Positions 9,222 through 14,653 of a stretch of 64,000 bases of DNA are shown in pieces. Positions within the stretch are counted from its first letter, which is position 1. Every line of letters begins with the position of its first letter. Below the pieces are notes generated by a model. The model saw only the letters and a program-made list of their open reading frames with translations. It did no database searches and was not told the origin of the DNA. Source of the stretch: Natrinema caseinilyticum (GTDB taxonomy: Archaea; Halobacteriota; Halobacteria; Halobacteriales; Natrialbaceae); the NCBI RefSeq assembly GCF_024227435.1, contig NZ_CP100445.1, positions 1,609,369-1,673,368 of the forward strand. Direction: 5' to 3'. A program made the translations under genes and the position numbers.

Positions 9222-11228
9222 ATGAGGCGACGAACGTGGCGGGTCGCGGTCGTCGGTATCGCACTCGTCGGCGCTCTCGCCGTCTGGCTGCTCGAGACGT
9301 ACACGTTTCCGTACCACTCGCTCAACCACGACGAGGGGGTCTACCTCCAGCAGGCGGCGATGGTGCTTGACGGACAGCTCTTCGTTCGACCGCCCGTCGA
9401 GGACGTCTTTCGCCCCTGGTTCTTCGTCGAAGACGGGGACCGACTGTATCCGAAGTACGCGCCCGTCCCCGCGGCCATCTTCGCGCTCGGCGAACTCCTG
9501 GGCGGGTATCGACTCGCGCTTCCGGGTATCGCGGCCGCCATACTCGCGCTCGTCGCGCTGGTCGTTCGCGAGGTTTTCGATCGGCGGACCGGCATCGCGG
9601 CCGCCGTGATCGTGCTGTGTTCGCCGCTCTTTCTGATCGAATCGGCCGTTTTCATGCCGTACGCGCCGACGACGATGCTCAACCTGACCTTCGCCTACGG
9701 CTATCTCCGAGCCGACCGAACGGACGATCGACGCTGGGCCGCGGCGGCCGGCGCGGCCATCGGATTGGCGTTTTTCTCACGACCGTACACCGCCGTGCTG
9801 TTCGCCGCGCCGTTCGTCGTCCACGCGTGCTGGACCCTTCGGGGGGATTTCCGTCAGGCCCTTCCCAGACAGACCGCGACGGCGGCGTTCGGGCTGGCGG
9901 GCGTCGGACTCGCGCTGGGTTACAACGCCGTCGTGACCGGCTCGCCGCTCGTGTTCCCCTACGAGGCGTTCGCGCCGCTGGACGGCCTCGGCTTCGGTCG
10001 CCGGCAACTTCTCGGTCCCGGAATAGAATACACCGCGGGGCTGGCGCTGCGGTCGAACGCGCTGGTACTGGCGACGTTCGCCACCGGCTGGATCGCCGGA
10101 GGAATTCTCGGCGCCGTCGTCGCCGCCGTCGGGTTCGGGGTCGCCGTCCGCCGCGGCCTCTCGCCCCGCGAATCGATCATCGCCGGACAGGTCCTCACCA
10201 TCGCCGTCGGGAACGTCTACTTCTGGGGGAACCACAACATCCTCGGAGATCTCGATCGGGCCGGCGACGGCCTGATCGCCACGCACGGCCCGTACTACCA
10301 CTTCGATCTCCTGGTGCCGTTCGCGGCGTTCGCCGCCGTCGGTGCACTGGCGCTCGTCGCCGCCGCCCGACGGGCGACGGATCGGAATCTCGGCCCGCAA
10401 GCGGCACGCGTCACGCTCGTCGCCGCGGTGCTCGTGAGCGCGCTCGCAGTGGGCGCCGTCACCGCGGCGAACGTCGACGAGAAAATCGATCGAAACGCGG
10501 CGGTGACCGACACCTACGAGCGGGTCTACGAGCCACTCGAGGACGCGCCGAGCGAGCGGTCGGTCGTGTTCCTTCCGACGCCGTACGGGGACTGGCTCGC
10601 CCACCCGTTCCAGGCGCTTCGCAACGATCCGGACTTCGACGGGCAGCGGGTGTACGCGATGGACGAGCGGCCGTTCGCCGTCGTCGACGAGTATCCCAAC
10701 CGATCGCTGTACAGATTCGCGTATCGCGGCACCTGGGATCCGCCCGACGGGTCCCCGCGTGCGGCCCGACTGCAACCGGTCGATCACGTCGCCGGCTCGA
10801 CGGTCGGACTGAACGCCACCGTCGGCGTTCCGACGGCGGCGGAGAGCGTCACCGTGACCCTCACGACGGACGAGGGGAGTGCCACGTCCGTCCTGGAGAA
10901 CGTCTCGGATCGGACGAGCCTTCGGGTGATCGCCACCGACGGGGCAGTGCGATTGGGCGGGCCGGAGATCGGGGCCACCGAATCGCTCCCCCTCGACGAT
11001 CGCGACGACGTCGTGCTCGACGTGTTCGTCGACCGCGGGCTCGGCGGGAGCTTCAGCTATCGGCTCGAGGTCCCGGTTCGGACGGACGGCGAGACCGTCC
11101 GTGCGCTTTCGCCCAGGGTCGAGCGGTGTAGCGGAATCCGCGATTGCGGCGGCGAAGCGGCGTACATCCCCGAGCAGTCCCCGAACGGCGTGTTCGTCCG
11201 AACCGATATCGTCGTCGTCGAAGAGTAG
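9222..11228 (+). CDS. Membrane glycosyltransferase, GT39/ArnT-like (GT-C fold)
   Basis: Large membrane protein of 668 aa. The first half has about ten hydrophobic segments and an early luminal-loop motif HSLNHDEGVYLQQA (residues about 29-42), the acidic loop placed after the first helix in dolichyl-phosphate-sugar-dependent GT-C enzymes. The second half (from about residue 430) is a soluble extracellular domain rich in beta strands. Such enzymes use polyprenyl-phosphate-linked sugars on the outer face of the membrane. It follows the metal permease by 21 bp and likely shares its transcript, so it would be expressed with box 3. The nearby GT2 polyprenyl-phosphate sugar synthase could supply its donor. 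Sugar and acceptor are unknown. Confidence 0.8.
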   Translation: MRRRTWRVAVVGIALVGALAVWLLETYTFPYHSLNHDEGVYLQQAAMVLDGQLFVRPPVEDVFRPWFFVEDGDRLYPKYAPVPAAIFALGELLGGYRLALPGIAAAILALVALVVREVFDRRTGIAAAVIVLCSPLFLIESAVFMPYAPTTMLNLTFAYGYLRADRTDDRRWAAAAGAAIGLAFFSRPYTAVLFAAPFVVHACWTLRGDFRQALPRQTATAAFGLAGVGLALGYNAVVTGSPLVFPYEAFAPLDGLGFGRRQLLGPGIEYTAGLALRSNALVLATFATGWIAGGILGAVVAAVGFGVAVRRGLSPRESIIAGQVLTIAVGNVYFWGNHNILGDLDRAGDGLIATHGPYYHFDLLVPFAAFAAVGALALVAAARRATDRNLGPQAARVTLVAAVLVSALAVGAVTAANVDEKIDRNAAVTDTYERVYEPLEDAPSERSVVFLPTPYGDWLAHPFQALRNDPDFDGQRVYAMDERPFAVVDEYPNRSLYRFAYRGTWDPPDGSPRAARLQPVDHVAGSTVGLNATVGVPTAAESVTVTLTTDEGSATSVLENVSDRTSLRVIATDGAVRLGGPEIGATESLPLDDRDDVVLDVFVDRGLGGSFSYRLEVPVRTDGETVRALSPRVERCSGIRDCGGEAAYIPEQSPNGVFVRTDIVVVEE

Positions 11229-11387
11229 CGGACGCGAGCGGCGCGGCTCCAACGATCGGACGGAGCGGGATCCCCGGGGACCGGAGGAGTGAAAGCTCCG
11301 AGAGCCGCCCGGGCAGCCGTCTCGAGGGGCGGGCGACGGACACATTTCAGGCAATAGCGTTAGAGGCCGTCCGCTCCCAGCATACCT

Positions 11388-12428
11388 ATGACCACCGAGC
11401 GGTGCGGCCACGTGACGAACAGCAGCGGGGTCGACGACGCCGGTGCGGTCTGTTGCTGGCGACCGACGTGGAGAGACGATCGGTGTCTCTGGCACACCGA
11501 GTCCGTCGTGCCGACGACTGCCTACGAGCGGCAGGCGCCCGCGCCGGGCGAGCGCCTCGACGGGGCGAACTTCGAGGGAGCGCGGCTGAACGATACCTCG
11601 ATCCTCGCGGGACAGTCGCTCGTCGAGGCGGATTTTTCGAACGCGGTCGTAGACGACGCCGACCTCTCCGGGGCGGATCTCCGGCGCGCCACGTTTCGGG
11701 ACGTCGACGCCCACGGCGCGTCGTTTCGGGACGCCAACCTGCACGACGCCGTGTTCGTCTTCGCCGACCTCCGCGGTGCGGACTTCCGGGGCGCACGGCT
11801 CTACCGCGCGGGCCTGACCGACGTGCGGATCAACCTCGAGACGTCGTTCAGCGAGCGCGCGGTCTACGAGGCCGAGATCGACCGAGAACTGTCGGGCGAC
11901 AGCGCCGTAGAGCGTGCCGAATCCGCACAGTGGGTGTATTCGGAACTCCAGCGGCTCTACAGGGAGAACGCGTTCCCGAAGCAGGCGAACGCGTTTTACC
12001 TCCGAGAGATGGACTTTCGCCGCCGCGAGGCCTGGCGGACGGGAAACTACAGGCGCGCGATTCGGCTGGCGGGATCGCGCTGGGTCATGCGCTACGGGAC
12101 GAGTCCGTGGCGCGTCGTCGCGACCTCGGTACTGCTGATTCTCGTCTGTGCGGGGCTGTACCCACTGACCGGCGGCATCCAGGAGGTCGGGACCGAGACC
12201 GCCGTGACGTACGAGATCGACGACCCCACCGAGACGCCGAGTCGCGTCCTCGGGCGGGCGTACCTGAAGAGCCTCTACTTCAGCGTGATCACCTTCGCGA
12301 CGCTCGGCTACGGCGATATACAGCCGGTAGCGGGGATGGCTCGGGCCATCGCCGCGGCCGAAACCCTGCTCGGATCGCTACTGATGGCGCTGCTGGTCTT
12401 CGTCCTGACCCAGAGCGTTCGATACTGA
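11388..12428 (+). CDS. Pentapeptide-repeat / two-TM potassium channel fusion
   Basis: 346 aa. Residues about 50-140 are a run of pentapeptide repeats of the A(D/N)LxG/F type (LDGANFEGARLNDTSILAG, ADLSGADLRRATFRDV), which form a right-handed beta helix. A helical region follows (about 160-230), then TM1 (about 240-260), a pore loop with the K+ selectivity filter TLGYGD (residues 305-310) and TM2 at the C-terminus. The layout is that of a 2-TM K+ channel with an N-terminal cytoplasmic sensor or scaffold. The short Cys-containing N-terminus (CGH, CCW, CLWH around residues 6-34) may bind a metal. It is convergent with the GT2 gene and shows no operon partner. Channel activity is likely from the filter; what gates it is unknown. 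Confidence 0.88.
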   Translation: MTTERCGHVTNSSGVDDAGAVCCWRPTWRDDRCLWHTESVVPTTAYERQAPAPGERLDGANFEGARLNDTSILAGQSLVEADFSNAVVDDADLSGADLRRATFRDVDAHGASFRDANLHDAVFVFADLRGADFRGARLYRAGLTDVRINLETSFSERAVYEAEIDRELSGDSAVERAESAQWVYSELQRLYRENAFPKQANAFYLREMDFRRREAWRTGNYRRAIRLAGSRWVMRYGTSPWRVVATSVLLILVCAGLYPLTGGIQEVGTETAVTYEIDDPTETPSRVLGRAYLKSLYFSVITFATLGYGDIQPVAGMARAIAAAETLLGSLLMALLVFVLTQSVRY

Positions 12429-13272: not shown

Positions 13273-13414
13273 TGATGTCTCGAAAGTATCACGATGCCGC
13301 CGGGGCACACCGGTTACGCAGACGGGACGAGGCCGACGACTAGTACTCGACTGTATAAACCCGCCCGAATCAGAGGCGGAACCTGTAGGGAATCGTGTGA
13401 CGAACCCACAACCC

Positions 13415-14653
13415 ATGAGCGCCGGAGGACCTGGCGGCTGGATACCGCTACCGGAGCCGCTTTCGAGTCGTGACGGAAACCTCGAGCCGTTCGACTGGTT
13501 TCGAACGCAACGATCGGCACACGATCTCCGCTGGGATCCGGAACGGGAGTGCTGGGACGTCTTCACGTACGAGGCAGTCGAGCAGGTACTGTCGGACGCC
13601 GAGACGTTCGCCAACGAGCCGATCATGGGGCAGAACACGACGTTCAAGGATACGTTGCTGGCACTCGATCCGCCGGAGCACACCGAGAAACGATCGCTCG
13701 TCGAGGAGCACTTCTCATACGAGGCAGTCCAACGCTACGAGGACGACATCAGGGCGAGTGCCGACCGGTTGCTCGAGGACGCGATGGACGGTCAGTCGGG
13801 ACAGTTCGATCTCGTCTCGTCGTTCGCCTATCCGTTGCCGATTTCGACCATCGCGGGGATCCTCGGGGCGTCCGAAGACGTTCGTGAGCGACTCAAGGCG
13901 GTGAGCGACGAGGCGGTGGCGGCCCCCGACTTGAGCGAGTTCGACGACGCAGACCAGTTCGTGGAAGACCAGGCCGAGGCCGTGTTCGGCATCGGCCAGT
14001 TGGTCAACGACGTCATTCTCGAGAAACGCGAGGACCCGGGCGACGATCTGGTCTCGGATCTCGCCGGATCGGACCACGGGCTCTCACACTACGAATTGCT
14101 CCGCCTGTGCGGGCTGTTGATGGTGGCCGGCCACGTCACCACCACGAACCTGATCGGGAACACGGTGCGGTGTCTGGCCGCCCGACCCGACGCGCTCGAG
14201 GCAGTGAAAGGAGCTATCGGGGATGGAGACGAGGAGCCCATCCATCGCACCGTGGAGGAGGTTCTCCGCTATCGCTCGCCAGTACAGCTAGCAGTCCGCG
14301 TCGCCACGGAAGACACCGCGGTCGCCGGACGATCGATCAGCGAGGGCGAGCCGGTCGTGGCATGGATTCAGGCCGCGAACCGGGATCCGGCGGTGTTCGA
14401 CGACCCGGACACGTTCGATCACACCCGCGCTCCCAACCCGAACATCGCCTTCGGACGGGGACCGCACACGTGTCTGGGGGCCCACCTGGCGAAACTCGAG
14501 GGACGGGTCACGACCAAGGTGCTGTTCCAGCGAGTCGAGTCACTGGAGGTGATCGATACGACGCACGAACCCGTCGAGGCCCCGTTCCTGCACGGCGTCC
14601 GGGAACTGCCAGTCAGGTACGAGTGTGCCACTGGCAGGGCAGATACCTCCTGA
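13415..14653 (+). CDS. Cytochrome P450
   Basis: Soluble heme-thiolate monooxygenase of the bacterial class, 412 aa from the ATG at 13415 (418 aa from GTG 13397). The I-helix oxygen-binding motif AGHVTTTN, the K-helix ExxR (EEVLR) and the heme loop FGRGPHTCLGAH are all present; the proximal Cys is residue 353 in the ATG numbering. A TATAAA box at 13354-13359 supports transcription from about 13382, which would keep both starts. No ferredoxin or reductase gene is adjacent, so electrons come from partners encoded elsewhere. The substrate is unknown. It stands divergent to the metal-box-controlled GT2 gene; a link through heme or iron is only a thought. Confidence 0.95.
   Translation: MSAGGPGGWIPLPEPLSSRDGNLEPFDWFRTQRSAHDLRWDPERECWDVFTYEAVEQVLSDAETFANEPIMGQNTTFKDTLLALDPPEHTEKRSLVEEHFSYEAVQRYEDDIRASADRLLEDAMDGQSGQFDLVSSFAYPLPISTIAGILGASEDVRERLKAVSDEAVAAPDLSEFDDADQFVEDQAEAVFGIGQLVNDVILEKREDPGDDLVSDLAGSDHGLSHYELLRLCGLLMVAGHVTTTNLIGNTVRCLAARPDALEAVKGAIGDGDEEPIHRTVEEVLRYRSPVQLAVRVATEDTAVAGRSISEGEPVVAWIQAANRDPAVFDDPDTFDHTRAPNPNIAFGRGPHTCLGAHLAKLEGRVTTKVLFQRVESLEVIDTTHEPVEAPFLHGVRELPVRYECATGRADTS

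Follow-up and report, generated by a model that had tools for sequence, protein, structure and literature searches.

In the window, the whole stretch of 64,000 nucleotides of Natrinema caseinilyticum DNA that was analysed, the plus-strand open reading frame at positions 11388-12428 starts with ATG, has no internal stop codon and encodes a product of 346 residues. From the N- to the C-terminus, a Cys/His-bearing segment is followed by a pentapeptide beta-helix, a helical linker and a two-transmembrane (2-TM) pore with the motif TLGYGD. In the Pfam scan the protein matched Pentapeptide PF00805 (E = 2.8e-18; 65.6 bits, gathering threshold 20.2) and Ion_trans_2 PF07885 (E = 2.1e-12; 47.2 bits, gathering threshold 22.5). 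Since both matches exceed the curated cut-offs, neither half of the fusion is due to chance. The reading frame, Pfam and hydropathy confirmed the composition given in the preliminary description, which had placed pentapeptide repeats, a 2-TM TLGYGD pore and a Cys/His N-terminus in one 346-residue chain. The Ka/Ks value of the gene was 0.19 when compared with the 93% identical copy of Natrinema gelatinilyticum, showing that the entire chain is a selected gene.

The N-terminal module (residues 6-36, 11403-11495, plus strand as for all parts of the gene) was delimited by invariance and motif count. The N-terminus contains C6, C22, C23, C33 and H36; of these, C6, C23, C33 and H36 were invariant in 25/25 aligned short-form orthologues. 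Of 83 haloarchaeal ORFs of the family, a set from which four ORFs had been left out, 68 show the corresponding CCCH pattern, against 75 of 4350 shuffled N-termini. Among 21 additional rows, taken from divergent haloarchaea, other archaea, bacteria and viral contigs, 11 had the pattern as well. Judging from the sequence, this small cap probably binds zinc.

The beta-helix or "crown" (residues 57-148, 11556-11831, about 4.5 coils) is supported by PF00805, by the structure model and by an alignment with NP275. When the translation was read by eye, 18-19 pentapeptides were found to span residues ~57-148, with one interruption near residues 73-77. None of the 25 aligned short forms showed a gap within residues 57-156, which means that the length of the crown is fixed among them. 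The longer relatives reach a chain of 1153 residues bearing 17 Pentapeptide_3 stretches. The confidence of the model (pLDDT) was 74-80 across residues 61-120.

The basic linker (residues 170-236, 11895-12095) was modelled as helices at residues 171-194, 197-217 and 221-235, and Y184, R211, R212, A215, W216, Y236 and G237 were invariant in the 25 short forms. Its spacing is like that of a TPR hairpin, and the match to a consensus TPR chain was weak and in register (E = 0.47). The TPR_7 profile gave a weak match in one of 36 family members (E = 0.18) and no TPR match was obtained with three sequence fragments; the hairpin is weakly TPR-like. TM1 (residues about 243-261, 12114-12170) was assigned by hydropathy and by a model helix at 240-257. 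It is followed by the pore helix and selectivity filter (12261-12317; PF07885 and alignments), the TLGYGD filter itself occupying residues 305-310 (12300-12317; translation and alignments). TM2 (residues about 317-342, 12336-12413) coincides with a model helix at 316-345 and a hydropathy peak near 320-340. Only four residues remain after TM2, which leaves the protein without a C-terminal regulatory domain. The median net charge in the 25 orthologues was +6 for the linker and -3 for the turret. A basic linker and an acidic turret are what an N-in topology would predict.

The upstream genes encode a solute-binding protein, a permease and a PMT_2/DUF7846 protein; the downstream neighbour is a convergent GT2 gene. 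A conserved operon was rejected, as this synteny (ABC-type genes, PMT_2/DUF7846, GT2) is confined to close relatives and was found in none of the other clades examined. A neighbour scan covered 99 ORFs at 21 loci, most of which belong to divergent orthologues; the 99 were drawn from 140 picked ORFs, members of the family itself and some others being dropped. Among the 25 of 109 Pfam families listed, the neighbours were mainly housekeeping genes, and among the 25 of 71 PADLOC families listed they matched mostly methylase models, with one ORF each. In the copy on a Halococcus plasmid, an annotated N-6 DNA methylase is located two genes upstream. A rough scan for nucleotidyltransferase motifs in 110 loci (1543 gene-like ORFs) yielded 21 matches, and no recurrent nucleotidyltransferase-like neighbour was detected in these loci beyond one related pair (L074, L076). 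Elsewhere in the window, the plus-strand ORF at 13397-14653 resembles a cytochrome P450 by eye (FGRGPHTCLGAHLA motif). The minus-strand frame at 9777-11744 was rejected as a gene on the basis of overlapping GC-rich frames.

At E ≤ 1e-10 the window protein had matches in 139 of the 391 Halobacteria genomes searched. Counted by hand, a near full-length version was present in 43 of the 391 at E ≤ 1e-75, and the full-length form in 8 of 22 genomes of the same genus; the genome sets searched were even draws and not every genome. A further named relative is that of Haloterrigena salina (76% identity). Plasmids gave 27 matching records, 18 of them at ≥80% coverage, including one from Aeromonas caviae and one from Nostoc; the plasmid copies are mostly annotated as "pentapeptide repeat-containing" or "potassium channel family" protein. 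A linker-plus-pore profile matched 94 of 294 genomes of other archaea in the phylum at E ≤ 1e-8, many of these matches being weak and limited to the pore. Examples from these other archaea combine the CCCH N-terminus, the repeat helix, the linker and the pore. Divergent relatives occur in other archaea and in bacteria, and the architecture is not restricted to halophiles. In viral contigs the full-length alignment revealed no relative, and the linker-plus-pore search found seven remote loci. The preliminary description had made its proposal depend on the fusion not being unique to this assembly, and its occurrence in 43 Halobacteria genomes, on plasmids, in other archaea and in bacteria settles that point. 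The family is apparently unstudied: within the collection of papers searched for this architecture or for haloarchaeal K+ channels, none was listed that deals with a pentapeptide-K+ channel fusion.

Five Ion_trans_2 loci were identified in the Natrinema caseinilyticum genome, the window gene and four others, and PF00805 matched solely in the window ORF. A second family member of the same genome (L114:3489-5717, minus strand; C1 about 2560909-2563137) encodes 743 residues, among them seven Pentapeptide_3 stretches and a pore with the filter TIGYGD. Comparable frames of 700-840 residues are found in other haloarchaea.

Several variant forms were encountered. In one remnant from the same genus (L110, G028:C1:2260501), TM1, the filter and the sequence between them are deleted. 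In L131, L133, L137 and L138, from other archaea of the phylum, a signal-like hydrophobic segment precedes the beta-helix, which raises a question of topology. On plasmids of Halalkalicoccus jeotgali (NC_014298, NC_014300) and Haloarcula (NZ_CP119795), the annotation divides beta-helix and pore between two genes. The matches in G060:C2/C4 and G250:C17 each contain one in-frame TGA and represent a split or broken form, and the 79% identical orthologue L041 (G255:C1:570119), whose N-terminal region is interrupted by a TGA, is possibly a pseudogene. A bacterial MAG contig (L020, JAUHVS010000002.1) contains an open frame of 2302 residues in which 22 pentapeptide stretches match the window protein.

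The conservation of the pore was evaluated next to that of the other parts. Across 25 orthologues the mean majority was highest in the pore (residues 291-314; 0.84), followed by TM2 (0.73), TM1 (0.67) and the linker (0.66). The filter was TLGYGD in 42 of 52 near-orthologue rows, TLSYGD in five, TLGFGD in four and TLGLGD in one. These rows are the top part of a 90-row alignment and represent 51 distinct records; the 90 rows include one record twice (L004, L043) and one gene twice (L002, L114). The aligned rows are loci selected by hand from the matches, so the proportions of filter changes are not unbiased. In the 109-row tree, from which L002 and the remnant L110 had been removed, the core xxG[YFLM]G was absent in 24 rows (the five TLSYGD rows among them), which requires at least 14 changes; as the tree was built rapidly, has long branches and uses rows chosen by hand, this number is indicative. 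The preliminary description had also relied on conservation of the pore loop, and this holds for most near orthologues but not for one clade, where the loop is changed, nor for many longer relatives, where it is lost.

The TLSYGD proteins (L056, L058, L060, L062 and L063) form one clade of one haloarchaeal genus (SH-aLRT 97) nested among TLGYGD rows, as would result from a single change. Ka/Ks among these orthologues was 0.08-0.16 in four pairs, which suggests that the proteins are maintained by purifying selection. According to published accounts, substitutions at the glycine equivalent to KcsA G77 (BK G354S, GIRK2 G156S, Shaker G376A) lead to loss of ion selectivity (PMC11251424), and the GIRK2 weaver mutation is a glycine-to-serine filter change which abolishes K+ selectivity (weaver background, PMC9001731). 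Since the same glycine is replaced by serine in the TLSYGD channels, these are predicted by analogy to be Na+-permeable. The natural series of TLGYGD, TLGFGD, TLGLGD, TLSYGD and altered filters can be regarded as an evolutionary experiment on K+ selectivity, carried out in cells placed between molar K+ and molar Na+.

Longer paralogues which retain the linker and the TM segments and have no usual K+ filter include L087, L093, L094, L099, L107, L111, L112, L116, L118, L142 and L145, among others. They may be non-conducting, non-selective or partner subunits. In the relative from Methylobacterium sp. Leaf117 (L005, 4800-6176), beta-helix, linker and TM segments are likewise present and the filter is replaced.

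A structure model built from nine sequences was of low confidence (mean pLDDT 62.4, pTM 0.40), an earlier one from three sequences having reached a pLDDT of 50.8. The top PDB match in Foldseek was HalA, the effector channel of the bacterial anti-phage system Hailong, with oligodeoxyadenylate (9nyi_A; E = 1.3e-6, probability 1.00, 353 alignment columns), with TM-scores of 0.24. VIA-align aligned 263 residues of HalA with residues 37-346 of the model (Z = 10.9, rmsd 8.4 Å). Given these TM-scores and this rmsd, the match does not bear on the relative placing of the domains. Among the VIA-align rows listed, HalA is the only one to span both beta-helix and pore, the other 49 covering one side. Foldseek also aligned SV2A/B, an unrelated transporter with a pentapeptide-like luminal domain, over 299-329 columns (E = 4e-5 and worse), and a long Foldseek alignment alone is thus not specific. 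In the BFVD search the 50 rows listed were mainly pentapeptide proteins, and no two-domain match was recognised among them.

The NCBIfam model of HalA, NF051894, found matches in 21 of the 25 short forms (the best at E = 3e-7), with scores that partly reflect the separate domains. The window protein obtained 10.9 bits, for an equivalog cut-off of 250 bits, and is therefore not assigned to HalA. In Halobacteria, 42 of the 292 genomes scanned had a match to the model at E ≤ 1e-3; no genome exceeded the cut-off. Several of the best haloarchaeal matches are members of the window family, matched over the linker and pore (in G018, profile positions 207-338, 30.8 bits).

Taken together, these results show a genuine fusion, both widespread and conserved, for which a channel gated via its beta-helix crown is the best interpretation. 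That the window protein is a crown-gated K+ channel of HalA architecture has, in our estimation, a slightly better than even chance of being correct. The crown is probably the gate, because the nearest solved relative of the same layout, HalA, is a channel shut by DNA. The window protein would be the subunit of a tetrameric, K+-selective 2-TM channel, whose sole regulatory part would be N-terminal and cytosolic, consisting of the probably zinc-binding cap, the short beta-helix and the basic helical hairpin that leads into TM1. Four beta-helices would crown the inner mouth of the pore, as in HalA, and a ligand or partner binding to the crown would shift the hairpin and TM1, whereby the pore opens or closes. 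The absence of a linked partner gene makes it probable that the ligand is either a general cellular molecule or the product of a locus elsewhere in the genome.

Alternatively, the protein could be a stand-alone, Hailong-like defence or growth-arrest effector, in which a nucleic acid or nucleotide on the crown holds the channel shut until infection releases it and the ion gradients collapse. The whole-chain resemblance to HalA and the distant NF051894 matches are consistent with such a role, as are the patchy distribution, the plasmid copies and the remnant L110. In brine, moreover, channels of the TLSYGD clade would presumably leak Na+ unless held shut. On the other hand, neither a recurrent nucleotidyltransferase-like neighbour nor, in the families listed, a defence neighbourhood was found. 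The window protein matched no PADLOC family at E ≤ 1, the 2023 library being older than the 2025 Hailong paper, and an opened TLGYGD pore would conduct K+ and not Na+. An effector of this kind is considered unlikely. A wider proposal would make the HalA of Hailong a specialised branch of a large and old family of beta-helix-crowned channels, most of them without HalB and gated at the crown by other nucleic-acid or nucleotide signals, with one haloarchaeal genus in which a weaver-type G-to-S filter became fixed, giving a Na+-permeable, normally shut channel under purifying selection. This proposal is unlikely as a whole and is put forward tentatively.

Salt-in cells depend on K+. A channel for K+ homeostasis, with the beta-helix as a mere tetramerisation or docking scaffold and gating by voltage, lipid or pH, would fit this reliance, and also the finding that 42 of 52 near-orthologue rows have the canonical filter and that the pore is the most conserved region. 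Against it, most of the genomes searched are without the gene (present in 43/391 at E ≤ 1e-75, and in 8/22 of the genus), a serine-filter clade exists and the filter has changed repeatedly, and the fixed crown length of the short forms exceeds what a loose tether needs. We consider a homeostatic channel of this type rather unlikely. The preliminary description had raised the beta-helix as a channel gate or membrane-proximal sensor and had noted that K+ control is central for salt-in halophiles. A gate or sensor is compatible with the domain layout, and HalA, whose fold matched best over the whole chain, is itself gated. A role in salt-in K+ balance was not supported: the patchy distribution argues against a core role, and the pore deletion in L110, the four other Ion_trans_2 loci, the recurring filter change and the occurrence of the architecture outside halophiles point the same way. 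It is highly improbable that the pore is vestigial and the protein a membrane-anchored beta-helix scaffold. Conservation peaks in the pore, and the filter of the window protein and of almost all its near orthologues is either unaltered or carries a conservative substitution. In favour of a vestigial pore, 24 of 109 family rows, through at least 14 changes, are without the usual filter core and many of them retain the linker and TM segments.

With regard to known systems, a TxGYG filter between two TM helices is present here as TLGYGD, according to hydropathy and alignments. The 2-TM pore and its filter resemble those of the KcsA, KirBac and SthK type (SthK pore, VIA Z = 11.3), and the phmmer alignment with KirBac1.1 starts at the pre-TM1 segment and runs onward. 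In contrast to these channels, all the additional parts of the window protein are N-terminal. A KirBac-type C-terminal cytosolic domain after TM2 is absent from its sequence and Pfam scan, and the same scan revealed no RCK/TrkA domain of the MthK type. The crown resembles NP275 (VIA Z = 16.8, 101 residues aligned); however, the free pentapeptide proteins NP275, HetL, MfpA and QnrB have no channel, whereas the window protein has a short helix joined to a pore. KCTD9 shares the pentapeptide repeats and bears "potassium channel" in its name. It is not known to form a pore itself, the part it shares with channels being the BTB/T1 tetramerisation domain. No BTB/T1 domain was found in the Pfam scan of the window protein, and KCTD9 was rejected as a relative.

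The closest comparison is with HalA, which reportedly (Tan, in 2025) combines a DNA-binding crown with an ion channel domain and is gated by DNA. Both proteins are of similar size and carry a beta-helix followed by a C-terminal 2-TM pore in one chain; the comparison covers the fold and the NF051894 profile. According to published work, Hailong makes single-stranded DNA oligomers that suppress its effector until a phage exonuclease releases the suppression (PMC12657230), and poly-dA adducts of HalB block the HalA ion channel (PMC13275509). The window protein differs in lying far below the NF051894 cut-off and in having no HalB-like nucleotidyltransferase adjacent to its gene, where PMT_2/DUF7846 and GT2 are located instead. 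It has the layout of HalA and, by these two results, the 250-bit score and the HalB neighbour, is not a Hailong HalA. The haloarchaeal members are crowned channels without a linked DNA-making enzyme, and HalA offers a structural hypothesis for the role of their pentapeptide crown, which turns them into a family with a testable gate.
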